From positions 62,001-126,000 of IMG/VR virus record IMGVR_UViG_3300012988_000016: 64,000 nucleotides of DNA; one strand, given 5' to 3'. The translations under genes and the position numbers were made by a program. Shown in pieces: positions 38,974 to 55,318 of the stretch. This DNA is from a virus. The notes below the pieces were generated by a model, which had not been told where the DNA came from, made no database searches, and saw only the letters and a program-made list of their open reading frames with translations. The first letter of the stretch is position 1. Every line of letters starts with the position of its first letter.

Positions 38974-39397
38974 GCTACCCACTAGAGAGATGGGGGACGT
39001 CAGGCTGTTGGTAATCGAACAGCAGCCTGACGGCTCTTGGGAAGATGAATGGGAGCTCCTTAGGAAAACCCCATTCGGTGCACAATTCAGCGTAATCTCC
39101 AAAGAGGTGCTGGATCATGCGTTGTACCGATTGTCCCGCCCATTGGTAGACGCCTTGGGGATCCCTCCGGCGGGAGCGTTGAAGAAAATACCGAAAGCCT
39201 CGAAAGAATGTTTTCGACGTGAACGGTGCATCTACCACGATAGCAAGAATTGCCATCCTGAAGGCAAGCAAATGCCGTGGTGTTACGAGCCTGACGGTGT
39301 AGAAGGTGAAGAGATCCGTCAAACGGCCACGAGGGCAATTCAGGAGTGGCGTGATGGGGTCTATTTGGTTGTGATTCAAGAGGATCAAGATGTCTGA
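38945..39397 (+). CDS. unknown protein with C-terminal cysteine cluster
   Basis: Up to 150 residues. The start is uncertain: GTG 38945, 38957 or 38960 overlap the primase gene, and ATG 38990 follows it but with a poorly spaced AGAGAG. A compact N-terminal domain (VRLLVIEQQPDG) is followed by a cluster CFRRERC...NC...WC (four Cys within 30 residues), possibly a metal site. The stop overlaps the polymerase start by 8 nt. The position within the replication operon suggests a replication accessory role. Confidence 0.6.
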   Translation: MTVSVVRRLKLPTREMGDVRLLVIEQQPDGSWEDEWELLRKTPFGAQFSVISKEVLDHALYRLSRPLVDALGIPPAGALKKIPKASKECFRRERCIYHDSKNCHPEGKQMPWCYEPDGVEGEEIRQTATRAIQEWRDGVYLVVIQEDQDV

Positions 39398-42197
39398 AGA
39401 CATAGATTTCGACGATATTGAGAGTTCACTGGGTAGTGTCCCCCAGGTAGCATTGACTGCAAAAAACACTAAAACGACCGTCATTGAGGGAGATGACCTG
39501 GAGTTCTTTGCTGAGAATTCCGGCATCAAATCCGATGATGTGGCGGCCTCCGAAGACTTGACCAAGCCGTGGATGAAATTCCACCAGTTCGTGCTGGTCA
39601 AGACCCCTGAGCAGGTGACCGAAATAGTTAATCAGATGCTAGCCCATGGCAGAGGCAGCATCGATCTTGAGACTGAGGGGTTGGACAACCGTATCTACTA
39701 CGATGAGGCAGATAAGCCCTACACGGTCCACAAGATCGTCGGTTTCTGTCTAGGTTACAGAGGGATTGGGCATTACATCCCTGTTCGACACAACTTCAAG
39801 ACCATCTATGGGGAGACAGACCCCAATGTCAATGTCGAGCATGTGGAGGCCGAAATACGTCGCCTGTGCCAAGCTAGTCAGCCGGTCCTGACTGAGGAGG
39901 GCTTGGCCGAGGATGCCTTGTCGTCCAACAAAATGGCAACACCCCCTAGGATTGTCTTGTATTTCTGGAACTCTAAGTTCGATCAAGAGTTCCTATTCCC
40001 GATCACTGGGATCGATTGGTGGCACCCAAATTCGTTCAAAGATGGGATGCTGGCTGCCTACACCGTCTATTCAGACGACGTGTTGAGCTTGAAAGAGAAG
40101 GCTTTCGAAAGGCTTTCGATCGAAGATCCAGAGCATAAGACGGACGGTAAACCCACCCTCCATCGTTATGAGATGATCAAGTTCAAGGAGCTGTTTCCCA
40201 AGGGCACGCCTAACAAGGAGATGCGGTTCGCAGATCTGTATCCGGAAGAGGGAAGCGCGGTTGTCAAGTACGCTTGCTCGGATGCGATCTGCACCGAGGC
40301 CTTGTGTGAGACCAAGCCTGATTGGCTGCTGGCTAGACCAGACCTGAAGGTGCACTTTCAGGAAGTGGAGTCCGCCACTGAGGATAAGAAATACGCTTTC
40401 ACCTACCGGCTAGAGAAGCAGACCACTCAAGCTGGTAGGGTGATGGAACGCCCGAGGGTGAAGATCGACAAGAAGAAGATCGTCGATCTGCTCAAACGTG
40501 CTGAAGAGGAACGGGAGAAGTACGACAACCTTATCCGAGCGATGGCGGAGAAACGGGGGTTTAAAGACTTCAATACAGGCTCTACCAAGCAACTGTCAGA
40601 CTTCCTCTTCTCTGCTGACGGTCTAAACATTAGCCCCAAGCCAGAGATGAATGCTGCCAGTGGTCAGTACAAGACCGATGCGGCCACTCTTGAGAAGATG
40701 CTGGAAGCCGACGATGCTCCAGAGGTGTTGGTCTGGATCGTGAAGTATCGCCAAATAGACAAAATCATCGGTACCTACCTGGCCAGCATGGCGGCCAATT
40801 GTGATGCCAATGACGAGCTCAGGTTCGGTTTCAATCAGACTGGGGCTGCTACTGGACGCTTCACCGCATCCGCGGGTCAGCCTGAGCAAGGTTACTCAGG
40901 CATTCCGATCCACGGCATTCCTGCTAGGAGCGACCCGAAGAAGCCTGAGGTGGCCCACTCACTCCGTCAGGCTTTCGTAGCACGGCCTGGATACACGATA
41001 GTGAAGGTCGACTACGCCGGCCAAGAGTTGCGGGTGGTTACCAACATCTCTGGGGAGAAGGTGTGGGTTGAAGAATTCATCCATGGGTCAGGAGATTTGC
41101 ACACCATCACCGCCAAGGCTTTCTTCGGACAACACATCACCAAGGAAGACAAGATTGAACGAGCGGCCGGCAAAGTGGCCAATTTTGCCCTGATTTACGG
41201 GGGTGGCCCGTCGGCCATCATGCGTGCAACCAAGTGCGATAAGGTGGAAGCGGCTCGTAGGAAGGCCAACTTCGACAAGTCGGTACCTACCTTTGCTGGA
41301 TGGGTCAAGAATCAGCACCAGTTGGTGAAGAAGACCAAAGGGGTGACGACCGCCTTTGGCCGTTTCATCGCCATTCCAGACGCTGCCGTGAAGACTGGGG
41401 ACTTGGACCCCAAAGGAGTGCCCTACACGGAGCAAGACGCTAGGAAGATTGCCGCCGCCTGTGAGCGAAAATCAACCAACTTCCCTATCCAAGGGTCGGG
41501 CGCCGACATCATGAAGATCAGCATGGTCAAGTTGGTGAAGGAATTTACCAAGTACGGCTGGTTGCGTAATGGTGGGGACGATAGCGTCCGGATGCTGATG
41601 ACAGTGCACGATGAAATTGTGTTCGAGATTCGTCATGACCGGCTCACTCAGGCAGTCCCAATCATCATCGAAATAATGGAATTCCCCAGCCGGATGGTCA
41701 GGTGGCAGGTTCCGTTGATTGTGGAACCGTTGATCAGCCAGACTTGGGAAGCCAAGATTGATTGGCATGAGGTTCAAAACGGCAAGAAACCGGTTCCTGA
41801 TTGGTTGGAAGGGATATTGGTCCCAGGGCAGCATCAATCGCCTGAGATGGTCCCTCACAAGACCTCTCAACCTGAGCAGGGGGGCCAATCTTCCAAGCCC
41901 TCCCCCCTTCAAGAATCTGGGCCTCACAACCCTACGAAAGGCACCCTTCCGGTCTACATCTTCGCCTTGAGCGACGCATTCCTTACCCGCCGATCGGTAG
42001 ACCTGGTGTTTGAAGCGGTTGCAGCCTCAATAGAACCGGACAGCAGGGTGTTCCTTTGCCTAAAAGATGCGTCAGATAACGTCTTGATTGACCCAACCAA
42101 GCGGAAAATACCAATCAATCCAAAGACATTCTCGATGAAGCTCAAGGACAAGAACTTGGGGTCTGGGGATTACCTGTACAAGGAAGAGCCCTTATAA
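39390..42197 (+). CDS. family A DNA polymerase with 3'-5' exonuclease and extra C-terminal domain
   Basis: A 935-residue protein. The DEDDy exonuclease appears intact: SIDLETEG near residue 91, NSKFDQEF near 195, and YACSD near 293. The polymerase domain carries motif A (VKVDYAGQELRVV, near 537), the O-helix (RAAGKVANFALIYG, near 591, with Arg, Lys, Phe and Tyr in place) and motif C (MTVHDEIVFEI, near 737). There is no 5' nuclease domain. After the core (about residue 810) comes a Pro/Gln/Ser-rich linker and a further domain of about 80 residues (852-935), which is unusual for this family. Phe in the O-helix is the residue linked to dideoxynucleotide discrimination in the family. It replicates the phage genome. 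The start follows GAGGATCAAG. Confidence 0.92.
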   Translation: MSEDIDFDDIESSLGSVPQVALTAKNTKTTVIEGDDLEFFAENSGIKSDDVAASEDLTKPWMKFHQFVLVKTPEQVTEIVNQMLAHGRGSIDLETEGLDNRIYYDEADKPYTVHKIVGFCLGYRGIGHYIPVRHNFKTIYGETDPNVNVEHVEAEIRRLCQASQPVLTEEGLAEDALSSNKMATPPRIVLYFWNSKFDQEFLFPITGIDWWHPNSFKDGMLAAYTVYSDDVLSLKEKAFERLSIEDPEHKTDGKPTLHRYEMIKFKELFPKGTPNKEMRFADLYPEEGSAVVKYACSDAICTEALCETKPDWLLARPDLKVHFQEVESATEDKKYAFTYRLEKQTTQAGRVMERPRVKIDKKKIVDLLKRAEEEREKYDNLIRAMAEKRGFKDFNTGSTKQLSDFLFSADGLNISPKPEMNAASGQYKTDAATLEKMLEADDAPEVLVWIVKYRQIDKIIGTYLASMAANCDANDELRFGFNQTGAATGRFTASAGQPEQGYSGIPIHGIPARSDPKKPEVAHSLRQAFVARPGYTIVKVDYAGQELRVVTNISGEKVWVEEFIHGSGDLHTITAKAFFGQHITKEDKIERAAGKVANFALIYGGGPSAIMRATKCDKVEAARRKANFDKSVPTFAGWVKNQHQLVKKTKGVTTAFGRFIAIPDAAVKTGDLDPKGVPYTEQDARKIAAACERKSTNFPIQGSGADIMKISMVKLVKEFTKYGWLRNGGDDSVRMLMTVHDEIVFEIRHDRLTQAVPIIIEIMEFPSRMVRWQVPLIVEPLISQTWEAKIDWHEVQNGKKPVPDWLEGILVPGQHQSPEMVPHKTSQPEQGGQSSKPSPLQESGPHNPTKGTLPVYIFALSDAFLTRRSVDLVFEAVAASIEPDSRVFLCLKDASDNVLIDPTKRKIPINPKTFSMKLKDKNLGSGDYLYKEEPL

Positions 42198-42214: not shown

Positions 42215-42796
42215 ATGAAACGTCGAGACGTCCTCCAAGAATGTGTTCTTGAGCAGTTGATTCCTGCTCAAGAGGTATTGTCCAATTGGTGTCATCGTTG
42301 CATAAATCCTGAATGCACACGAAGCCAACACGGGACAACCAAGTTTGATGACCGAGTCCTTCATTGGGAGGAGCGTCTTTTCCTAAATCCAGCTAAACTG
42401 GAACCTTCCGATCCTCGTTATCAAGAGATAGCTTCCAAGCGATTTCTGACGGTTGTCCCTGGCACTCCTAGCGCTCCTGGTGAGTGGTTAGACCCCAGGG
42501 TAGATCGTCCGGAACCGAAGATGGTACAGGTTCCAGTTCAGCTCACCCCGCCTGCTTTCGCGCCTCAGGCGGCACTCCCTCAAGAGGTGGCACCTACCCC
42601 TACCCCTACCCCTCAAATACCCAGCAATCCGTCTGTTGTTCGAAATACTCCCGCCAGGCCTCAACAAATGATCGGGGAAGCCCCCCAAACGATGCCCTCC
42701 TCGGTGTCTGATCCTTGGGCACAGAAGTCCGTCCCAGCCAGCCCGGGAGACCAGGTGGTCAAGCCTGGTGTCAAGATCAAACTTGGCGGACAATGA
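42215..42796 (+). CDS. unknown protein with Cys/His N-terminus and Pro-rich linker
   Basis: A 193-residue protein. The N-terminus holds CHRCINPECTRSQHG (near residues 26-40), a probable small zinc site. The middle and C-terminus are Pro/Gln-rich and disordered, including PTPTPTPQIP encoded by three CTACCC units. The protein ends with a basic hydrophobic stretch (VKPGVKIKLGGQ). Not recognised. The linker style resembles that of the polymerase C-terminal extension just upstream. Confidence 0.65.
   Translation: MKRRDVLQECVLEQLIPAQEVLSNWCHRCINPECTRSQHGTTKFDDRVLHWEERLFLNPAKLEPSDPRYQEIASKRFLTVVPGTPSAPGEWLDPRVDRPEPKMVQVPVQLTPPAFAPQAALPQEVAPTPTPTPQIPSNPSVVRNTPARPQQMIGEAPQTMPSSVSDPWAQKSVPASPGDQVVKPGVKIKLGGQ
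42594..42611 (+). repeat. (CTACCC)x3 microsatellite
   Basis: Three perfect tandem copies of CTACCC lie in the Pro-rich region of the preceding gene and encode Pro-Thr pairs. Because the unit is 6 nt, changes in copy number would keep the frame. Confidence 0.9.
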
Positions 42797-42811
42797 ATCC
42801 GCAGCTATAAT
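42783..42811 (+). promoter_or_regulatory. sigma70-like promoter TTGGCG-N17-TATAAT
   Basis: TTGGCG (42783-42788), a 17-nt spacer and a perfect TATAAT (42806-42811) form the best consensus promoter in the window. Transcription would begin at about 42818, 4 nt before ATG 42822, so the AGGAG just upstream would be excluded from this transcript. Confidence 0.6.
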
Positions 42812-42821
42812 AGGAGCCATC

Positions 42822-42989
42822 ATGAAATTCGAAGTTTTGATTCACTTGGACGGTCGTCGTGAGCATGTTGTGACAGAGCGTGCTGAGGGCGAGAATTGCG
42901 ATAGGATTTTCCAGTACAACGCGGGGACGATGGTCTCTGACGAGCGTACCGGTCCCGATTGCGACACGGTCCAAGAAATCACCACCTGA
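42822..42989 (+). CDS. DUF2997-like small protein
   Basis: A 55-residue protein. ATG 42822 is preferred over an in-frame upstream ATG because AGGAG lies 6 nt before it. The layout resembles DUF2997: a beta strand (KFEVLIHLDGRRE), a second strand, a Cys (ENCDRI), and a tail with RTGPDCDTVQEI. DUF2997 genes are often next to DUF1257 and Ycf46-like AAA genes in cyanobacteria and large phages, which matches this location. The family match is by eye and tentative. Confidence 0.55.
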   Translation: MKFEVLIHLDGRREHVVTERAEGENCDRIFQYNAGTMVSDERTGPDCDTVQEITT

Positions 42990-43023
42990 TCAGTCAAGAA
43001 ATTCACAAGGAAAGGATACCTAC

Positions 43024-43356
43024 ATGTCTCACAAGGTGACGTTTACGTCGACATTCACAAATCCGGATTTGGTCGCTTCTGCCCTGACCCTCTCCAAGTA
43101 CTCCTTCGATCGCAATGGGAACAATTTCCGCATCACAAGCGGTCCGTTCAGCAATGCTACGATCGATGCTGATACGGGAACCATCACGGGCGATTCGGAC
43201 TACAAGAATCACAAGTCCGAAGCCTTCGCTGCCTTCCGTCAAACGTACAGCGAAGCTGAATTCGTCACCAAGGCGAAGCAGACGGGCGTCGACATCGAGA
43301 GTCGTGAGGTGCTCAAGAATGGCACCATTCGCCTCCGTTGCGCTACGTTGGGCTGA
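43024..43356 (+). CDS. DUF1257 (Ycf35)-like protein
   Basis: A 110-residue protein. ATG 43024 has AAGGAAAGG upstream; longer readings into the previous gene have no support. It starts MSHKVTF, as DUF1257/Ycf35 proteins typically start MSH. It ends in the family-like pattern of a helix with Tyr, then 'GV-x-IESREVLKNGTIRLR', comparable to the family's closing DGSIRL strand. In plastids and cyanobacteria Ycf35 has no established biochemical activity. It lies before a Ycf46-type AAA ATPase, a known neighbour pair, with a strong terminator between them. Confidence 0.65.
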   Translation: MSHKVTFTSTFTNPDLVASALTLSKYSFDRNGNNFRITSGPFSNATIDADTGTITGDSDYKNHKSEAFAAFRQTYSEAEFVTKAKQTGVDIESREVLKNGTIRLRCATLG

Positions 43357-43380
43357 TCTGAGTTAGCCCAGGCACTTGCA

Positions 43381-43415
43381 AACGGGCTCTATCCTTTGAG
43401 GATGGGGCCCGTTTT
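43381..43415 (+). terminator. rho-independent terminator
   Basis: A 14-bp stem (43381-43394 with 43400-43413, including AACGGGC/GCCCGTT and ATCC/GGAT) encloses a TTTGA loop and runs into TTTT. It separates the DUF1257-like gene from the AAA ATPase gene, which has its own promoter-like element. Confidence 0.88.
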
Positions 43416-43425
43416 GCTTCCATCT

Positions 43426-43434
43426 TGGTGTAGA
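43426..43434 (+). promoter_or_regulatory. extended -10-like element before the AAA ATPase
   Basis: TGGTGTAGA ends 10 nt before ATG 43445, directly after a terminator. AGAGGA (43432-43437) overlaps it and could act as a Shine-Dalgarno if transcription begins further upstream. A member of the GGTGTA family. Confidence 0.4.
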
Positions 43435-43444
43435 GGATAGAATC

Positions 43445-45010
43445 ATGAACGAAGACCTGAAGTTCCATCTGCGATCAATCACTCGATTCATCTACTTCGT
43501 CACTGACGAAGAAGACCTCTTCATCGAAGACATGAAGAAATCGCTTGAAGACCTCAAACAGCAGACTTTCGTCTACAACAGTGCCTTTGGGTTGCAGCCG
43601 ATCAAGAATGTGACGGACGATTGGAGGCTCAGAAGCCATAATACGGACGATAAGACCGAGAACATTCAGGCGGCACTGACGAAGATCTATACTGATGATC
43701 CGATGCAGTTCCGTAACTTCTACATCATCACCGATCCAGATCGTTGGTTGAAAGAGGAGTATCTGGTCCGCCGATTCCTCAACATCGCCCACCAGCTGAC
43801 CAGTGATGACAAGAACATCAAGATCCTGATTTTCGTTGGACCCCGACTGGTGATCCCTCAGAAGCTTCGCCGATACATTGAAGTGGTGCACGACAAGGGG
43901 ATGGCTGAAGAGCAGACGACAGAGATCCTGCAGAACATCTGCACACATTTGGAAATGCCTTTGCCAGATGTACGCCCTTTCAAAGGGCTGACCAGGTACG
44001 AGATCGATGCTGCGGTGGCGCAAAGCGTGATCAAGAATCGAGTCAAAGACCCAACCAAGAAGGTCGTTTTTTCCAAGGACATTTTGGATTACAAGCGACG
44101 TCAACTTAAGAAGACAGATCTGCTAGAATACCAGGATACGACGGGATTCACGTTCGATGCTTTGGGGGGTGCGGATCGCTTCAAAGCTTGGGCCATGGAG
44201 ACCAAAGACGCTTGGACTGAAGAAGGGCAGGCGTTCGGACTTACTCCGCCGAGAGGTGTCCTGTTGGCTGGCATCTGGGGATGTGGCAAATCCCTTGCCG
44301 TCAAGGCATTGGCCAACGCCTGGGGTTTGCAGGTTGTTCGTTTGGAACTGGGCAAACTTCGTAGCAGCGGCGTGGGCGATTCAGAAGCCAATGTCTACAA
44401 GGCGTTGCATTTGATCGAAGCGGTCGCCCCCTGTGTGGTGATGATCGATGAAGCTGAGAAGTCTCTCTCTGGAGCAGCCTCATCGGCTCAAACTGATTCA
44501 GGAACCACTAGCCGCATGTTGGCTAGCCTGTCGACTTGGATTCAAGAAACCAATGCGCCAGTATGCCTGGCATTGACGGCCAATACCCTCAATGGTTTGC
44601 CGACCGAGATCATCAATCGTATGGACGAACGCTTCTTCTTCGATCTGCCAACTGAAGATGAGCGAATGGATATTCTCAAGATCCATCTGCGAAAGACCAA
44701 GCAAGACCTGAAGCGATTCAACTTCGCCATCCTGGCTGAGGCGGCCAACAACCTGGTTGGTCGAGAGATCGAACAAGCCATCAGAGCTGCTATGCGGCGT
44801 TCGTACAACCTCCAGAAGGAAAGCCTGGATCCGGAAGTCTTGTTGGATCAGTTGAAGACCAAACCTCGTTTGCTCAGGACAATGGGGGATGCGGTCAAGG
44901 AATTGCTCGATTGGGTTGGCTTCGATCCTGAGGTTGGGGAAGGCGTGCGGGCCAAGTTCGCCTCTTCTGACAGGGTTAAGATGTTTTCAGGTCGTGTCAA
45001 AAATGACTGA
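43445..45010 (+). CDS. Ycf46-type AAA+ ATPase
   Basis: A 521-residue protein. The N-terminal 200 residues form an alpha/beta domain ending before LEYQDTTGFTFDALGG. The AAA+ core follows: GLTPPRGVLLAGIWGCGKS (Walker A, near residues 263-281), then ELGKLRSSGVGDSEANVY, Walker B VAPCVVMIDEAEKSL (near 330), sensor 1 LALTANT and an arginine-finger region NRMDERFFFDLP (near 391). The 'PPRGVLL', 'GDSEANV' and 'APCV-x-x-IDE-x-EK' wording is characteristic of Ycf46. All catalytic residues look intact. Together with the DUF2997-like and DUF1257-like genes it forms a conserved but poorly understood set. The partner or substrate is unknown; the 389-residue neighbour and the VWA protein are candidates. Confidence 0.85.
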   Translation: MNEDLKFHLRSITRFIYFVTDEEDLFIEDMKKSLEDLKQQTFVYNSAFGLQPIKNVTDDWRLRSHNTDDKTENIQAALTKIYTDDPMQFRNFYIITDPDRWLKEEYLVRRFLNIAHQLTSDDKNIKILIFVGPRLVIPQKLRRYIEVVHDKGMAEEQTTEILQNICTHLEMPLPDVRPFKGLTRYEIDAAVAQSVIKNRVKDPTKKVVFSKDILDYKRRQLKKTDLLEYQDTTGFTFDALGGADRFKAWAMETKDAWTEEGQAFGLTPPRGVLLAGIWGCGKSLAVKALANAWGLQVVRLELGKLRSSGVGDSEANVYKALHLIEAVAPCVVMIDEAEKSLSGAASSAQTDSGTTSRMLASLSTWIQETNAPVCLALTANTLNGLPTEIINRMDERFFFDLPTEDERMDILKIHLRKTKQDLKRFNFAILAEAANNLVGREIEQAIRAAMRRSYNLQKESLDPEVLLDQLKTKPRLLRTMGDAVKELLDWVGFDPEVGEGVRAKFASSDRVKMFSGRVKND

Positions 45011-46172
45011 TGATCTGGCAAAGGTCGAATATGGGGGTCTGGTACAAAGACTGGACCCCCAGGTTCTCACCAAAGCAAATCCTGAACCGGTAGACTTGCT
45101 CCAAGCAAGAGCCGATATTCAGAGAGATGCCCCTTTACAACAGATCTTCAGAGACTCTGTCACTGAGCAGTGGCCAGAGGGGCGGCTGGAATCAGAAGTG
45201 ACGTCTGCCCTCAAGAAGCTTTGGCCCTCAGGAGACCCAACCGAAGCAGCTCAATATCTGGCGGACGAATATCGTCAGTTGGGTGAGGGTCTGCACCTCA
45301 TTTCCACTGAGACGGGAAAGGTTCTGATAGCCTTCAAAGAGGAAGATCTGTACCAACCTTCTATGGTGCCTCGTACAGATGGGACGATGGCTACCCCTTT
45401 GCCAAAGATTCGCCCTGACTTGATGTCCGCGTTGGTGACCTGGCAGCATGAGCGGGCTAGCGAAAAGGTTGTCCTGAGGCAATTGGCCGAAAAAGGGTGT
45501 CAGACCGAGCTGTTGCGGGAGCTGGGCGATCCCAGGCTTCTGGTGGCCTCCAGGGCAGGCCGGAAGCACATCGTCAAGTCCTTGGCTGAGCTGGCTCCAA
45601 GAAGCCTCCTAGAAGCGGCTGGTGGCTCATCCGCCGCTTTCCTGAAGTTGTTCACCCTGGTGGACCAACCTTTCTCGGAAAGTCCTGTCGGATATACGTA
45701 CATCAGAGGTTCCGCCCAAGCTACATCGGTACAGTCGATTGCCGATCTGTCTACCACCAACCTACGGCACAACCGTGTTCAGGCTCTACAAGGGGCGATC
45801 ACCCAAGGTTGGATCCGAGAGATGGCCAGGCAGTTGTCCGATTTCTCTGGTTGGATGGCGCCCGAAGAAGTGACGCTTGATGACCTGGTGTCGCTGCCAG
45901 CCAGCTTTTGGATCCTACCTCCTGATTTGGTCCGGCCATTCCGAAGCCTAGATTCCAAGATTATCGTCTTGGTGGCAGAGAACGCTCGGCCGATGGGACT
46001 GACGGGCCATTTGGGTTACCTCTATGTTCCTGAAATGTTTCAGGCCAAAGACAGGGAATTCTTTAGCCGCTGGGAATCGGTAGCTAGATTGGAATTTGAG
46101 ATGTGGGTCAAGGAAGACGCCCTCAGACCACTGAACGTGACAGGAATGTCCCATGAGGCACATTTGGTCTGA
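45003..46172 (+). CDS. unknown protein coupled to the AAA ATPase (389 aa)
   Basis: A 389-residue protein whose ATG (45003) overlaps the ATPase stop by 8 nt, so the two are translationally coupled. The sequence is mostly helical with many Leu, Ala, Glu and Arg residues (LRQLAEKGCQTELLREL, then KSLAELAPRSLLEAAGG), and a C-terminal alpha/beta part (SKIIVLVAENARPMG). No membrane span or enzyme motif is visible. The tight coupling suggests it is a partner or substrate adaptor of the Ycf46-type ATPase. Confidence 0.7.
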   Translation: MTDDLAKVEYGGLVQRLDPQVLTKANPEPVDLLQARADIQRDAPLQQIFRDSVTEQWPEGRLESEVTSALKKLWPSGDPTEAAQYLADEYRQLGEGLHLISTETGKVLIAFKEEDLYQPSMVPRTDGTMATPLPKIRPDLMSALVTWQHERASEKVVLRQLAEKGCQTELLRELGDPRLLVASRAGRKHIVKSLAELAPRSLLEAAGGSSAAFLKLFTLVDQPFSESPVGYTYIRGSAQATSVQSIADLSTTNLRHNRVQALQGAITQGWIREMARQLSDFSGWMAPEEVTLDDLVSLPASFWILPPDLVRPFRSLDSKIIVLVAENARPMGLTGHLGYLYVPEMFQAKDREFFSRWESVARLEFEMWVKEDALRPLNVTGMSHEAHLV

Positions 46173-46474
46173 TGGGCCTTTATCGAAGGATGTACGGTTC
46201 GACCATTGAGCCGGTCTTCTTGTCAAAATGTCAATTTCATGGGTCTGAGGTAAGGGATGCCCTCATCAATTTGGCCAAGGGCTCTTACTTTGTCGACGAT
46301 CAGGCAGAGAAGTTGATTCGAGAGTGGGTGGAAGAAGGCGTGGTGCAAACCCTGCAGAAAGCCCCCACTCACTCTCAAGCGGCTTTTATTGGGCTTCAGT
46401 ACTCAAACAAGACCTACAAGGAGGCTGTTTGGGGACCTGGGATAATTGAGCACTATTGGTATAAAGTCCTTTGA
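46172..46474 (+). CDS. small winged-helix-like protein
   Basis: A 100-residue protein overlapping the previous stop. After a short basic start, a helix-helix-wing arrangement is suggested by VRDALINLAKG, then AEKLIREWVEEGVVQTL and two strands. The recognition segment resembles that of the 46715-46966 product (TEALFQELVEEGAIQQS), so the two may be related DNA-binding proteins. Role unknown. Confidence 0.6.
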   Translation: MGLYRRMYGSTIEPVFLSKCQFHGSEVRDALINLAKGSYFVDDQAEKLIREWVEEGVVQTLQKAPTHSQAAFIGLQYSNKTYKEAVWGPGIIEHYWYKVL

Positions 46475-46491
46475 TTGAACCGATAAGGGTG

Positions 46492-46734
46492 ATGGCCCTT
46501 TACAGTTTGATTGTCGTGGCTCAGCGGCCTAGCGGTTTGATGGACCCCATGGTGATGCTCGACAAGGGGATGAACGTCTTCACAGCCGAGATAGCCGACT
46601 TGGACGAGTTTTTGAAACAACTCAAAGACGAAGGGGTGGAGGTTAAGACTGTCAACCGGCTCGACGATTTTGAAGCTACTGATGCTTCGGATCTTTTGCT
46701 AGGTGAGGGCTTTGATGGCGAAATCGAAATATGA
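46492..46734 (+). CDS. unknown small acidic protein
   Basis: An 80-residue protein. ATG 46492 follows ATAAGGGTG and is preferred to an in-frame TTG at 46471. One beta strand (LYSLIVVAQ) and helices (IADLDEFLKQLKDEGV) suggest a small alpha/beta fold, and the C-terminus is strongly acidic. It sits between two winged-helix-like genes. Function unknown. Confidence 0.6.
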   Translation: MALYSLIVVAQRPSGLMDPMVMLDKGMNVFTAEIADLDEFLKQLKDEGVEVKTVNRLDDFEATDASDLLLGEGFDGEIEI

Positions 46735-46966
46735 GTCATACCCGCCCCCTCCTGGGCCAAAGATTACCAAGGAGGACGCCAAAGCAGAAATACTCAAACT
46801 CTTCGGGAGGAGCGTCCGCCCTCTGTTGATCGGTACTGCGGCCATCCATCTGGGTAGCATTTGGTCTATCGATAAGACCGAGGCTCTGTTTCAAGAGCTT
46901 GTTGAAGAAGGAGCTATCCAGCAATCATCAGACGGAGAACTCTCGTTTGTACGGGTAAAGCCGTGA
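46715..46966 (+). CDS. small winged-helix-like protein
   Basis: An 83-residue protein. ATG 46715 has GAGGG 5 nt upstream. A Pro-rich N-terminus (YPPPPGPK) is followed by helices and a wing: AKAEILKLFG, TAAIHLGSIW, TEALFQELVEEGAIQQS and the strand ELSFVRVKP. It resembles the 46172-46474 product in the second helix. Probably DNA-binding, by fold only. Confidence 0.6.
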   Translation: MAKSKYESYPPPPGPKITKEDAKAEILKLFGRSVRPLLIGTAAIHLGSIWSIDKTEALFQELVEEGAIQQSSDGELSFVRVKP

Positions 46967-47130
46967 ATGACGATGACTTCAAATCAGAACCCCCTACCGA
47001 ACCTTTCAGTATGCAGTACAGAGCTGCTAGACTGATCAAGTGGTGGGCTGCCTGTACACCCGACAGTCAGAAAATAATCGAACGTATGGCTGCCAGATTG
47101 GCTAGCTTGGTCAAGCCAGACCTCAAGTGA
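46963..47130 (+). CDS. short basic/aromatic protein (55 aa)
   Basis: A 55-residue open frame with GTG start overlapping the previous stop (GTGA). The N-terminus is acidic (NDDDFKSEPP). The rest is a basic amphipathic helix pair (QYRAARLIKWWAACTPDS, then ERMAARLASLVK). It ends exactly where the macro-domain gene's promoter element begins. The tight junctions support a real gene, but the start codon and ribosome binding site are weak. Confidence 0.5.
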   Translation: MNDDDFKSEPPTEPFSMQYRAARLIKWWAACTPDSQKIIERMAARLASLVKPDLK

Positions 47131-47139
47131 TGGTGTAAT
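47131..47139 (+). promoter_or_regulatory. extended -10 element (TGGTGTAAT) of the macro-domain gene
   Basis: TGGTGTAAT ends 11 nt before ATG 47151 and immediately follows the upstream stop. The closest family member to the consensus TGnTATAAT. No Shine-Dalgarno precedes the start, so a leader of about 5 nt is predicted. Confidence 0.5.
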
Positions 47140-47150
47140 GTGACGGCATC

Positions 47151-47639
47151 ATGCCGATCACATATCTGGAAGGCGATGCCACCTGCCCACAAATAGATGG
47201 CCCTAAGATTATTGCACACGTCGTCAACAGCAGTGGCGGTTGGGGCCGCGGTTTCGTCTTAGCGGTCTCCGACAGATGGTTGGGCCCTGAGCAACGGTAC
47301 CGCAAATGGTATGCCAGCAAGAAGAATTTCAAGTTAGGCGCCGTTCAGACCCTCCAAGTTGAGCCAGACATTTGGGTCTGCAACATGTTGGCTCAAGAGG
47401 GGTATCTGACTACCAAGAAACATGGGCCGCCGCTACGGCTGCCCCGCCTCAAAGAATGTTTGGACCTGTTGAAGGAAGCTGCCATTGAGAGGCATGCTTC
47501 CGTCCATATGCCTCGTATAGGATGCGGATTAGGTGGCTCTGATTGGGATGTGGTCGGCCTGATGGTCGAACAATCTTTGGGTGAAGTGCCGGTCTATGTG
47601 TACGATCTTTATCCTCAATCTGTAGTTCGCCAAACCTGA
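47151..47639 (+). CDS. macro-domain protein (ADP-ribose binding/hydrolase)
   Basis: A 162-residue, single-domain protein. Macro-domain signatures are present: YLEGDAT at the start, KIIAHVVNSSGGWGRGF (near residues 19-35, with the conserved Asn and Gly loop), WVCNMLAQ, and MPRIGCGLGGSDWD (near 120-133, the phosphate-binding loop). This form resembles the ADP-ribose phosphatase/hydrolase branch. It may remove ADP-ribose from proteins or nucleic acids or process its derivatives, possibly against host defence; that use is inference. Transcribed from its own near-leaderless promoter. Confidence 0.88.
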   Translation: MPITYLEGDATCPQIDGPKIIAHVVNSSGGWGRGFVLAVSDRWLGPEQRYRKWYASKKNFKLGAVQTLQVEPDIWVCNMLAQEGYLTTKKHGPPLRLPRLKECLDLLKEAAIERHASVHMPRIGCGLGGSDWDVVGLMVEQSLGEVPVYVYDLYPQSVVRQT

Positions 47640-47660
47640 CATAGATTGTCCTAGCTGAGG

Positions 47661-47688
47661 TTGACTCAGATGTGCCGCACGGTGTAAG
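47661..47688 (+). promoter_or_regulatory. promoter TTGACT-N16-TGTAAG before the VWA gene
   Basis: TTGACT (47661-47666) and CGGTGTAAG (ending 47688) lie 7 nt before ATG 47696. This member of the GGTGTA family has a recognisable -35, which supports reading the motif as a -10. Transcription would start about at the ATG. Confidence 0.55.
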
Positions 47689-47695
47689 ATGGGGC

Positions 47696-50188
47696 ATGTA
47701 TGATGACGGCACTCCCTTTTGCGCTACCTGTCACTTGGTAGTCGTTGCCTGTTTGTGTGGTCATCCAAAGGAGAATTCAATGGATCCGTTTAGTTACAAA
47801 GTTTCAGACAAGCTCTTTTTGGTCCGTCAAGCGGTCGCTACCGAGAAGCCGAAGACGATCGCTGTAACGCCGCCCACCAACCACGTGATGGTGATCGACT
47901 GCTCCGGCTCAATGTACGGAGAATTGCCGAGGATTCGTGAGCAGTTGAAGAAGAAGCTCCCCAAGTTGCTCAAGGCGGAGGACACCATCAGTATCATCTG
48001 GTTCTCGGGCCGGAGAGAGTGCGGTATCTTGCTCGAAGCAGAGCCGGTCGCAAGCTTGAAGGAGCTACAGACAGTCGAAGCTGCGATTGATCGTTGGCTC
48101 CGGCCAGTCGGCTTGACGGGTTTCAAAGACCCGTTGGAGCTCGTTCCAGGCTTGACGAAGAAGATTTCAGCAGCTCGTCCTAACAGCGTGTTCTCGTTGT
48201 TCTTCATGTCGGACGGTTGCGACAATTGCTCCTCTCGCCCTGAGATCATCAAGGCTGTGGAAGCTGCTGGCCAAAGTGTGGCGTCGGCTACTTTCGTCGA
48301 GTATGGCTACTACGCTGATCGTCAATTGCTGGCTCAGATGGCAGAGAAGGCCGGTGGTTCGACCATCTTTGCTCAAGACTTCGATCAATTCGAGCCAGCC
48401 CTGGAAGCCAGCTTGCTGAAGCGAACCTCTGGCGCCCCCAAGATTGAACTGAAGATCGCAGGCGACGCAATCTGTGGTTTCGCTTTCGGCTTCTCTGGCG
48501 ATGATCTGTTGACCTTCGCAGTAGAAGGCTCGGTCATTCATGTCCCCAAGGATCAGCACGACATCTGGTATCTCTCACCCAACAGTGTAGGGACCCAGGG
48601 TGTCGATCTGTTGACCATTTCGGCCGAAGCGGTGGATCCCAATGTGACGGCTTCCTCAAATGCCGAGGTCATGCATCCAGCCTACGCCGCCATCAGCCTT
48701 TTCGCCAACCGTATGAAGTCGGATGTGGTGTTGGCGACGCTCAAGGCGTTGGGGGATGTGACGTTCATCGAGCAATTCTCGACCTGTTTTGGTAAGCAGA
48801 AATACAGCGAGTTCGTGGCCGCTACCCAAAAGGCGGCTTTTGATCGTAGCGTTCGGTTCACCAACGGCCGAGATCTGAACCGTATTCCGAAGGACGATGC
48901 CTTCACGGTGCTGGATCTGCTTCGTGTCTTGTCGAGTGATGACTCAAATCGCTTGCTACTTGAAAGTAAAGACTTTAGGTACAATCGAATCGGGCGTGGT
49001 CAGATCGATTCCAGTTCGGTCCTGACTGATGAAGAACAAGCCGAGGTGGCCCGCCTGACGGCTGAAATGGCCAAGACCAAAGACAGCAATAAGGTGAAGG
49101 AATTCACTGCAAAGATTGCTGCCATCACGGATGCGAAGGACAAGCCCCTCAAGTTCGACGCCACCCCGATTCCGGATGGTGTCGAGATCAATGGTCTGGT
49201 CTACAACGAAGAACGTCCCAATGTGAGCGTTCGCGTCTTGCGTGGAGGTTCGGTCGACCTGAGCGACCGTTTGGCGAAAGCCGATCAGGCCGTGGCCAGC
49301 AAGATCCCGCACACCTTCCCGACCAACATTTGGCGCAACTACACCCTCATCAAGGACGGCTTGGTCAATGTCGAACGCTTGCCGGTCCGCTTGACGGCTG
49401 GTACGATCCGCACGCTCAAAGCACAAGGGATGCCGATCGAGACCATCTTGGGTGTCGATGGTGAGGATGCTGCCCAGGCTCGCATCCGTGCCGCCAAAGC
49501 GTCTGACGGTCGTGACGTCAGTGTGGTGTTCGACCTCAAGAGTCTGCCGATCATCAATCGCCAGATGATCAAAGAGGCGAGTGCTCAGGTCCTGTTCGAG
49601 AAAGAGTTCGAGCTCTGCAAAGCTCGGGCGGCTCAGAAGGTCTACAAGTGGTACTTGGAGCAAAACTTCAAGAAAGTGTCCAAGGGCCTGGCTGAACAAT
49701 ACGGCACAGAAAGTGCCGACTGGCTCAAAGAACAGGGCATCACGGACGGGGGCTTCAACCCCAAGTCGGTCCAAGCAGAGTCTGTGGACGTCTACATGGG
49801 CAAGGAACTGAAGACCAGCCTCAAGGGTCTCTCTACGATCCCCTCTGTGAACGAGGCCAAGAAGAAGATCGCGGCGGCTGGCAAGCTGACCCCCTCGGTC
49901 TCTTTGCTGGTTCCCTACATTGCTGAAGTGGACGCCTACCTGGCCAGTGCTGAGCACAAGGCTGATGAGGCGGCTTTGGAGAAGTGGCTGGGGGATCGAG
50001 CCAAGCAGGCCACTCAGAAGGTGCGAGGGCTGTTGTTCGAACTCTCCAACATCAAGTTCTCGATCATTGTCGGTCAGATCTGGCCAATTGAGTTCAAATC
50101 TTTGGACGAAAACACCCTCACCATTACGGTGGACGGAAACCAGATCGTAGGGACCTTGGAGCAACGGGAAGTAGAGATCAAGATTTGA
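47696..50188 (+). CDS. large VWA-domain protein with Cys-rich N-terminal extension
   Basis: An 830-residue reading from ATG 47696. An internal ATG at 47780 with AAAGGAG (47767-47773) 6 nt upstream would give 802 residues. Both starts look usable: the first by leaderless initiation, the second by Shine-Dalgarno. Only the long form has FCATCH...CLCGH, a possible zinc site. The VWA domain has an intact MIDAS: VIDCSGSM near residue 69, a Thr in GLTGF, and FMSDGCD. The C-terminal 450 residues are alpha/beta and helical without a known family. VWA proteins commonly pair with AAA+ ATPases (MoxR/CoxE, chelatase types). The Ycf46-type ATPase 2.7 kb upstream is an obvious candidate partner, by inference. 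Confidence 0.85.
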   Translation: MYDDGTPFCATCHLVVVACLCGHPKENSMDPFSYKVSDKLFLVRQAVATEKPKTIAVTPPTNHVMVIDCSGSMYGELPRIREQLKKKLPKLLKAEDTISIIWFSGRRECGILLEAEPVASLKELQTVEAAIDRWLRPVGLTGFKDPLELVPGLTKKISAARPNSVFSLFFMSDGCDNCSSRPEIIKAVEAAGQSVASATFVEYGYYADRQLLAQMAEKAGGSTIFAQDFDQFEPALEASLLKRTSGAPKIELKIAGDAICGFAFGFSGDDLLTFAVEGSVIHVPKDQHDIWYLSPNSVGTQGVDLLTISAEAVDPNVTASSNAEVMHPAYAAISLFANRMKSDVVLATLKALGDVTFIEQFSTCFGKQKYSEFVAATQKAAFDRSVRFTNGRDLNRIPKDDAFTVLDLLRVLSSDDSNRLLLESKDFRYNRIGRGQIDSSSVLTDEEQAEVARLTAEMAKTKDSNKVKEFTAKIAAITDAKDKPLKFDATPIPDGVEINGLVYNEERPNVSVRVLRGGSVDLSDRLAKADQAVASKIPHTFPTNIWRNYTLIKDGLVNVERLPVRLTAGTIRTLKAQGMPIETILGVDGEDAAQARIRAAKASDGRDVSVVFDLKSLPIINRQMIKEASAQVLFEKEFELCKARAAQKVYKWYLEQNFKKVSKGLAEQYGTESADWLKEQGITDGGFNPKSVQAESVDVYMGKELKTSLKGLSTIPSVNEAKKKIAAAGKLTPSVSLLVPYIAEVDAYLASAEHKADEAALEKWLGDRAKQATQKVRGLLFELSNIKFSIIVGQIWPIEFKSLDENTLTITVDGNQIVGTLEQREVEIKI
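47767..47773 (+). promoter_or_regulatory. strong internal ribosome binding site in the VWA gene
   Basis: AAAGGAG sits 6 nt before the in-frame ATG 47780. It is the best Shine-Dalgarno in this region and probably drives the short form of the VWA protein. Confidence 0.65.
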
Positions 50189-50213
50189 TCCTGCCCCTGC
50201 TCTGAGGGTCATG

Positions 50214-50248
50214 GGCCCTCTCTCAACTAGGTTGGGGGAGGGCCTTTT
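50214..50248 (+). terminator. rho-independent terminator after the VWA gene
   Basis: A 14-bp stem (50214-50227 with 50231-50244, including GGCCCTC/GAGGGCC) with a 3-nt loop is followed by TTTTGCTTTT. It closes the AAA/VWA transcription block. Confidence 0.9.
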
Positions 50249-54076: not shown

Positions 54077-55318
54077 ATGAGAAGCTGCGATCTTTGCCAA
54101 CGGCCTGAGAACGAAGTCAAGCAAATCGTCGAACTGATCAAGGATGGTCCTTGCATTTGCAATCGTTGTTTCGGCACAGCCGCCGGCTTGATGAATGCGG
54201 CTCAGAAGCCTAAAGAAGAGCCGCTACTTCTAAAACCCAAAGCAATTTACTCCCGTTTGGGCGATTATGTGGTGGGGCAAGATGCCTCCCGTCAAGATCT
54301 GTCAGTAGCGGTCTACAACCACTACAAGCGGCGTGACGCTGCTAAACGAGGCTTGTTGTTGCAGGATGTTGAGATTCAGAAGAGCAACATCCTGATCCTG
54401 GGTCCTAGCGGAACCGGCAAAACCCAGATGGCACGCACGCTAGCTAGACTGCTGAAGGTGCCATTCTTTGTCGGAGACGCCACTCGATTGACCCAGACGG
54501 GCTATGTGGGTGAGGATGTCGAAACGTTGGTTGAAGGCCTCGTAACAGCAGCTGGCAATGACCCTGAGAAGGCCGAGTGGGGGATCATCTTCCTGGATGA
54601 AGTGGACAAGATTGCTCGAAAGAGTGGTCGGGAAGCGGCTGGTTACCGAGACATCTCAGGAGAGGCGGTCCAGCAAGCACTGTTGAAGCTGCTGGAAGGT
54701 ACACAGTTGACGCTATCCAAAGGTGGCCTCAATGGTATGGGGAACGAGACCTACACGATCGATACCAGTAATATCCTGTTCATTTGTGCAGGATCGTTTG
54801 CTGGAATTGAGGAGTCGGTCAACCGTCGAAAGAATAAGCATGTGAAGGTGGGATTTGGTTCGGAATCCCGCCAACAGCACACCTCTGCAGAGGCCTATCT
54901 AGCGATTGAGGAAGAAGATTTGCTGGATTTCGGCCTGATTCCTGAAATGTTGGGCCGCATCCCTGTCAGGACTACCACCATCCCATTGACGGAAGATGAG
55001 ATGGTCAGGATTCTGACTGAACCCAAGGACGCCATCATTCGACAGGTCAAAGCCTTGTTTGAGATGGACGGTATCGATCTTCATTTTGATGATGAGGCGC
55101 TCCGAGCTATTGGCCAAAAAGCGATCAAGAGCCAGACAGGTGCGAGAGCGTTGCGGACTATCGTTGAACGGATCCTCAAAACCTATGCTTTTGAATGCCC
55201 CAGTGATCCTACCGTAAAAGGCATCATGATCACCAAGGCAGCGGTAGAGGGGACGGCTGAGGCGGCCATTTTGCGGGAACCTTTGGAAGTGCAGCCTCTT
55301 GCCATCCAGGCAGGCTGA
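54077..55318 (+). CDS. clpX: ClpX-like AAA+ unfoldase
   Basis: A 413-residue protein (E. coli ClpX is 424). The N-terminal C4 zinc domain is intact (C4, C7, C28, C31). The AAA+ core has GPSGTGKT (near 109), the GYVG pore loop (near 142), IIFLDEVDKIARKS (near 170), YRDISGEAVQQALLKLLEGT, IPEMLGRIPV with the arginine finger, and TGARALR (sensor 2). The ClpP-docking loop position reads VGFG (near 257), compatible with the (I/L/V)GF tripeptide, so docking to a host ClpP is plausible. The RKH loop of cellular ClpX is replaced by GGLNGMGN, suggesting altered substrate choice. No phage ClpP gene is in the window. Confidence 0.92.
   Translation: MRSCDLCQRPENEVKQIVELIKDGPCICNRCFGTAAGLMNAAQKPKEEPLLLKPKAIYSRLGDYVVGQDASRQDLSVAVYNHYKRRDAAKRGLLLQDVEIQKSNILILGPSGTGKTQMARTLARLLKVPFFVGDATRLTQTGYVGEDVETLVEGLVTAAGNDPEKAEWGIIFLDEVDKIARKSGREAAGYRDISGEAVQQALLKLLEGTQLTLSKGGLNGMGNETYTIDTSNILFICAGSFAGIEESVNRRKNKHVKVGFGSESRQQHTSAEAYLAIEEEDLLDFGLIPEMLGRIPVRTTTIPLTEDEMVRILTEPKDAIIRQVKALFEMDGIDLHFDDEALRAIGQKAIKSQTGARALRTIVERILKTYAFECPSDPTVKGIMITKAAVEGTAEAAILREPLEVQPLAIQAG

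Follow-up and report, generated by a model that had tools for sequence, protein, structure and literature searches.

The replication region of the jumbo-phage virus record IMGVR_UViG_3300012988_000016 (308,895 bp) carries a compact row of genes which raises the question of which of them belong to one molecular system. We analysed a 64,000-nucleotide stretch of this record (G000:C1:62001-126000, hereafter the window, whose numbering is used unless a record name precedes the coordinates). A first-pass annotation had read the row between 42.8 and 50.2 kb as a single machine made of a DUF2997-like protein, a Ycf35/DUF1257-like protein, a Ycf46-type AAA ATPase, a translationally coupled protein of 389 residues (u389), small proteins, a macro-domain protein and a VWA protein. 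The named genes are indeed present in that order, all open and on the + strand. However, the constant partner of the ATPase, which that annotation overlooked, is u389, a protein with a predicted HK97 capsid fold, and the VWA and macro genes are independent phage genes brought beside the conserved block in one sublineage.

The evidence for a conserved block comes from gene order. In 15/15 syntenic contigs (L007-L020 and L026, with near-duplicates among them), the order polymerase, g193, DUF2997, DUF1257, ATPase, u389, u87 was kept. The DNA polymerase gene (39390-42197, +; phrog_17, 1e-94) forms the upstream edge of the block and is followed by g193 (42215-42796, +), which gave tblastn matches in the syntenic contigs. 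u389 (45003-46172, +) adjoined the ATPase gene (43445-45010, +) in all 25 contigs checked, namely the 15 syntenic contigs plus G000, G022, G024, G041, G060, G066, G071, G073, G075 and G076, with spacing that ranged from an overlap to ~1.1 kb. In the window the u389 start codon (ATG at 45003) lies ahead of the ATPase stop codon (45008-45010), an overlap of 8 bp. Since most of the named genes are kept as proteins in other phage contigs, chance open reading frames (ORFs) are ruled out. Phage G, Tunturi_5 and LR745208 have neither the ATPase nor u389, yet the capsid protein family is common to all of these phages. u87 (46492-46734 from an ATG start, or from a TTG at 46471; +), which was traced by iterated profile and alignment and found in 15/15 syntenic contigs, is a probable member of the module. 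The conserved unit is DUF2997-DUF1257-AAA ATPase-u389(-u87), situated in the replication region of a jumbo-phage clade with phage G-type capsids; we judge the chances to be about even that this unit works as proposed here, with u389 as a second, HK97-fold protein that partners the ATPase. As a separate observation, the polymerase match in L015, L018 and L020 is broken into 2-3 pieces over several kb, which suggests inteins or introns.

What kind of protein, then, is u389? By sequence it matched no family that we searched. A Pfam search with 13 members gave no significant match, the encapsulin family PF04454 included, and tblastn against 50,697 isolate-phage records and a scan of viral contigs with u389 alone as query each returned no match; we rejected u389 as a member of a known Pfam, PHROG or PDB sequence family, for want of any significant match. 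An AlphaFold2 model was built from a 13-sequence input (mean predicted local distance difference test, pLDDT, 85.6; predicted template modelling score, pTM, 0.64). When the model was compared with the PDB by Foldseek, the SaPIbov5 capsid protein came out on top (4.3e-6, probability 1.00) and the best 50 matches were capsid or encapsulin entries, while the named matches in BFVD were mainly major capsid proteins (MCPs), including phage G gp27 at 2.8e-6. Across the two libraries the best E-value was 7.5e-7 (probability 1.00), and the assignment to the HK97 fold was near-unanimous. The predicted fold is thus like that of encapsulins and HK97-fold capsid proteins (3dkt, 7rwz, 6wkk), from which u389 differs in being ~100 residues longer, in having an AAA partner, in its low template modelling (TM) scores and in matching neither PF04454 nor PF05065. 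The order of elements in the C-terminal part of the model, helix-strand-helix-strand, would fit the A and P domains of HK97.

Three observations weigh against an HK97-fold partner that works with the ATPase set. The TM-scores between u389 and HK97-fold structures are only 0.2-0.45, with root-mean-square deviations of ~6-25 Å, so the likeness lies in local structure and order and does not amount to a tight superposition. The fold is also without sequence-profile support from Pfam, PHROGs, PDB sequences or hhalign, the last of which found nothing when the u389 profile was compared with those of MCPs, encapsulins and Phage_capsid proteins. However, profiles of known HK97 families made in the same manner (encapsulin, Phage_capsid, gp27-type MCP) missed one another as well, and since they fail this control, the negative sequence result for u389 says little. 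Lastly, a strong, terminator-like stem-loop with a T-rich tail (43378-43417, +; -29.3 kcal/mol, z -5.3) fills the gap between the DUF1257 and ATPase genes, so that a shared transcript may be lacking. If u389 is not HK97-like, it could be an alpha/beta protein unrelated to that fold which serves the ATPase as partner or substrate adaptor, with the Foldseek matches reflecting partial local similarity. The low TM-scores, the pTM of 0.64 and the missing sequence support all suit this explanation, whereas near-unanimous matches to a single fold in two libraries, at probability 1.00 and E-values down to 7.5e-7, speak against it, as would the C-terminal element order if the model is right. We regard it as a possibility to be taken seriously, yet an improbable one.

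We rejected u389 as the MCP, because the true MCP gene lies elsewhere, at G000:6317-7198, where it follows a gene resembling those of head maturation proteases; its product matches phrog_2522 (4e-51) and the gp27 structure of phage G (6wkk, 9e-61), and u389 is both distant from it and poorly conserved. The MCP is 91-94% identical in G002, G008, G010, G022 and G024, while u389 is 26-34% identical across the aligned clade members, with the exception of L026 (64%), and its gene sits ~100 kb from the MCP gene, among replication genes. The record has one u389-like ORF only. u389 might still be a minor capsid protein of the penton or vertex, comparable to T4 gp24, with the ATPase set unrelated to it; its predicted fold would allow this, and T4-like phages do build their pentons from a distinct subunit of the same fold (review PMC13185644). 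We consider this unlikely, since the gene lies in the replication region ~100 kb from the head genes and always adjoins the ATPase gene, since phage G has the same MCP type without u389, and since one would expect a partner of so conserved an MCP lattice to show similar conservation. Given the divergence and the distance of u389, a second HK97-fold protein outside the virion is the simplest reading, and on the strength of the model we conclude that u389 is probably such a non-virion protein, coupled to an AAA remodeller.

A further explanation is that u389 mimics capsids, acting as a decoy or sink that blunts capsid-triggered host defences, with the ATPase turning over the resulting complexes. 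The fast divergence of u389 relative to the MCP, its predicted HK97 fold and the position of its gene apart from the head cluster would be in keeping with this, but u389 has no sequence likeness to the phage's own MCP; we rate it as very unlikely. A defence-system profile search returned nothing beyond weak matches, of AAA sequences to IetA and of the macro protein to DarG. Independently of u389, a homing endonuclease-looking ORF was seen after the major capsid gene (G000:7282-8229).

The ATPase itself (521 residues) consists of an N-terminal domain and one classical AAA domain and matched PF00004 (4e-22) and phrog_8638 (2e-87). Its AAA domain matched entries of the CDC48 class in both NCBIfam and the PDB, and no match to the MoxR family was found in the Pfam, NCBIfam and PDB comparisons. 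The Walker A and Walker B residues and R392 were invariant in an alignment of the jumbo-phage and siphophage homologues. It shares the AAA domain class and Walker A/B motifs with CDC48/p97 but has a single AAA domain and an N-terminal domain that is not of the p97 type, and its arginine-finger segment is shorter by two residues than that of its siphophage relatives. The N-terminal domain was alignable across the phage homologues, and Ycf46 of cyanobacteria and plastids has apparently the same architecture as the phage ATPase. In two relatives (L020:10514-11863, from G014, and G022:C1:292081-293385), the ATPase gene contains an in-frame insert directly before Walker B; the L020 insert (~450 residues) is intein-like, with VTGETLV after a Cys, a THN end before a Cys, and LAGLIDADG-like motifs. 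Further downstream, the window also encodes a ClpX-like full AAA+ ATPase (54077-55318; PRK05342, 4.8e-137) that occurs in many relatives.

The two small proteins upstream of the ATPase were assigned through their relatives rather than through their own scores. The DUF2997-like protein (42822-42989, +; 55 residues) was aligned with 12 syntenic homologues and had no Pfam match to PF11211 itself, whereas the G010 protein at the syntenic position scored 24.7 bits against a cut-off of 24.1. Similarly, the DUF1257/Ycf35-like protein (43024-43356, +; 110 residues) reached 17.5 bits against PF06868, below the Pfam cut-off of 22.2, but the iterated profile of its clade reached siphophage proteins that exceed this cut-off and matched a Sporomusa protein (L119) at 6e-14. 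Both family assignments thus depend on relatives, the G010 DUF2997 and the siphophage DUF1257 proteins, while the window copies miss the Pfam cut-offs.

Downstream of u389, the gene row changes in character. The macro-domain protein (47151-47639, +) is BT1257-like: it was sub-threshold in Pfam, but its match to the BT1257 structures 2afc and 2fg1 (E 1e-43) leaves its predicted identity intact, and it is similar to the TARG1/ALC1 family (TARG1 4j5r, 3e-6). Judged by eye, the Asp of the TARG1 CGLD motif is presumably replaced in this protein (CGLGGSDW). The VWA protein (47780-50188, +; 802 residues) is a full-length member of phrog_2426 (9e-176) and passed PF00092 with 24.0 bits, barely above the 23.8 cut-off; the residues of its metal-ion-dependent adhesion site (DCSGS, T, D) are present, in agreement with the first-pass annotation. 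It is 47-79% identical to its counterparts in the nearest viral contigs and ~33-35% identical to those in isolates. An intrinsic terminator follows it (50213-50245, +; 15-pair stem, -31.1 kcal/mol, z -4.3), so that both stem-loops that had been called as strong terminators, at 43381 and 50214, do fold strongly.

The first-pass annotation had paired the ATPase with this VWA protein as in MoxR/chelatase systems, with the macro and Ycf35 proteins as accessories. Adjacency gives this pairing some support, in that the VWA gene adjoins the block in the window and L026, and probably also in L057, a contig that begins inside u389 and continues with u87, u83, macro and VWA genes; moreover, ~10 large contigs have both the ATPase and the VWA gene, so the outcome that the annotation itself had named as refuting it, that the two never co-occur, did not arise, although they are mostly unlinked. 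However, the window, L026 and probably L057 are the only contigs in which the VWA gene adjoins the block. In G002, G006, G008, G011, G013, G022, G024, G041, G060 and G066 it lies ~36-238 kb from the ATPase gene, and in G005 (251 kb) and G010 (416 kb) the ATPase is present and a VWA match is absent. Conversely, 8 contigs of >300 kb have the VWA gene without a close ATPase. Because these contig records may be fragments, gene absences weigh less than presences. VWA homologues also occur in 499 isolate records, mostly with Klebsiella, Salmonella or Escherichia names and near full length in 480; the records inspected were Ackermannviridae, and 2/2 of those tested had no ATPase match. In a distant clade (L084-L110, at least 15 loci), a class II ribonucleotide reductase-like gene (~850-1250 residues) and a second, ~250-residue VWA gene, both named from sequence, precede the VWA gene, which places it in other company; a class II ribonucleotide reductase was sought in the present phage and not found. 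The proteins themselves do not fit the pairing either, as the ATPase is of the CDC48 class and the model of the VWA protein is similar to the core of Sec23/24 (ArnA/ArnB, Sec24); the matches listed for it include no VWA protein of the MoxR-associated or chelatase kind. The MoxR/chelatase pairing is thus largely refuted, and we give it hardly any credence.

The macro gene, like the VWA gene, is a neighbour and not a constant member of the module, as it sits elsewhere in G006, G008, G011 and G013. On co-occurrence and linkage we rejected the 42.8-50.2 kb row as a single machine: its core set is conserved, while the macro/VWA grouping is specific to a sublineage. The six-part row is mostly the neighbourhood of that one sublineage, and the VWA and macro proteins should not be lumped with the ATPase. 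The small ORFs between u389 and the macro gene vary in their spread. u100 (46172-46474, +) is an orphan found in this phage only, with no homologue in the fetched loci, whereas iterated profiles found u83 (46715-46966, +) in most syntenic contigs and u55 (46963-47130, +) in the window and L026 only. The small proteins had been described as winged-helix-like, for which neither Pfam nor PHROGs gave support.

The three upstream families recur together well beyond this clade. Siphophages of Rhizobium (RHph_I4, L338C), Aeromonas (HJ05), Pseudomonas (SM1) and Rhodobacter (RcKickapoo) carry sets of the form ATPase-X-DUF1257-DUF2997, which share the three families with the jumbo-phage block and likewise lie beside replication genes; in contrast with that block, their order differs and X (200-245 residues) has no evident relation to u389. 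Their ATPases are 23-27% identical to that of the window. In bacteria, a Sporomusa row (L119) contains Hsp70-like, DUF1257, ATPase, DUF2997 and NrdG-like radical-SAM genes, and an Actinomadura row (L120) contains DUF1257, DUF2997, ATPase, a large protein and an Hsp70-like protein. The three families are thus neighbours in these rows as they are in the phage, with chaperone-like and radical-SAM genes in addition and no HK97-fold partner seen. In cyanobacteria, a DUF2997-ycf35-fed7 cluster has been described (PMC4284462), in which both small families adjoin as in the phage; compared with that cluster, the phage set has the ATPase directly attached, has u389 added and has no ferredoxin. Their joint occurrence in siphophages and bacteria, together with the DUF2997-ycf35 pair of cyanobacteria, marks these three families as a recurring set, for which we infer a possible chaperone or remodelling role. 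Around the Ycf46-like ATPases of L119:2187-8355, L120:4470-11687, L121, L122 and L123, we repeatedly observed Hsp70-like, HEAT-like and NrdG-like radical-SAM genes.

In the mechanism that we consider most likely, the ATPase, presumably a hexamer, would act as a Cdc48-class remodeller of the Ycf46 type. Given their constant linkage to it in phages and bacteria, DUF1257 and DUF2997 may serve as its small adaptors. u389, translated right after the ATPase, would be its dedicated partner or client and could self-assemble during the replication phase into a shell, ring or lattice outside the virion, which the ATPase and adaptors might assemble, load or dismantle using ATP. The full proposal, that HK97-fold u389 forms an intracellular shell or lattice built or dismantled by the Ycf46-type ATPase with Ycf35 and DUF2997, as an ATP-driven, encapsulin-like system of the phage separate from the capsid, is one that we hold tentatively and well short of calling probable.

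Outside the window, the record encodes other features of interest. The phage carries a Cas9 gene (G000:205573-208635, L207:2073-5132; TIGR01865, 5e-156), directly followed by a repeat array (G000 ~208741-209675, L207:5241-6175) with a 36-nt repeat, GTTGTGACCCCTTTTGATCTCTCGATCCATTCTCCC, at ~72-nt spacing. Judging from their motifs, an actin-like protein (DIGTMN; G000:34548-35600) and a uracil-DNA glycosylase-like protein (GQDPYHG; G000:10425-11075) are encoded as well.

The Ycf35/DUF2997/Ycf46-like set predicted by the first-pass annotation is therefore present and conserved, and in the literature that we searched we did not find the phage form of this DUF1257/DUF2997/Ycf46 set described, nor a phage-encoded pair of an AAA ATPase and an HK97-fold protein. 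In cyanobacteria, plastids and bacteria, no established biochemical role for Ycf46, Ycf35 or DUF2997 was found in the literature consulted; the phage form is compact and comes with an obvious partner protein, which makes the function of these families testable. If u389 is indeed a second HK97-fold protein served by an AAA remodeller of its own, the capsid fold would here have a use that we did not find described in the literature, and the evolution of phage capsids would be linked with encapsulins and AAA remodellers.

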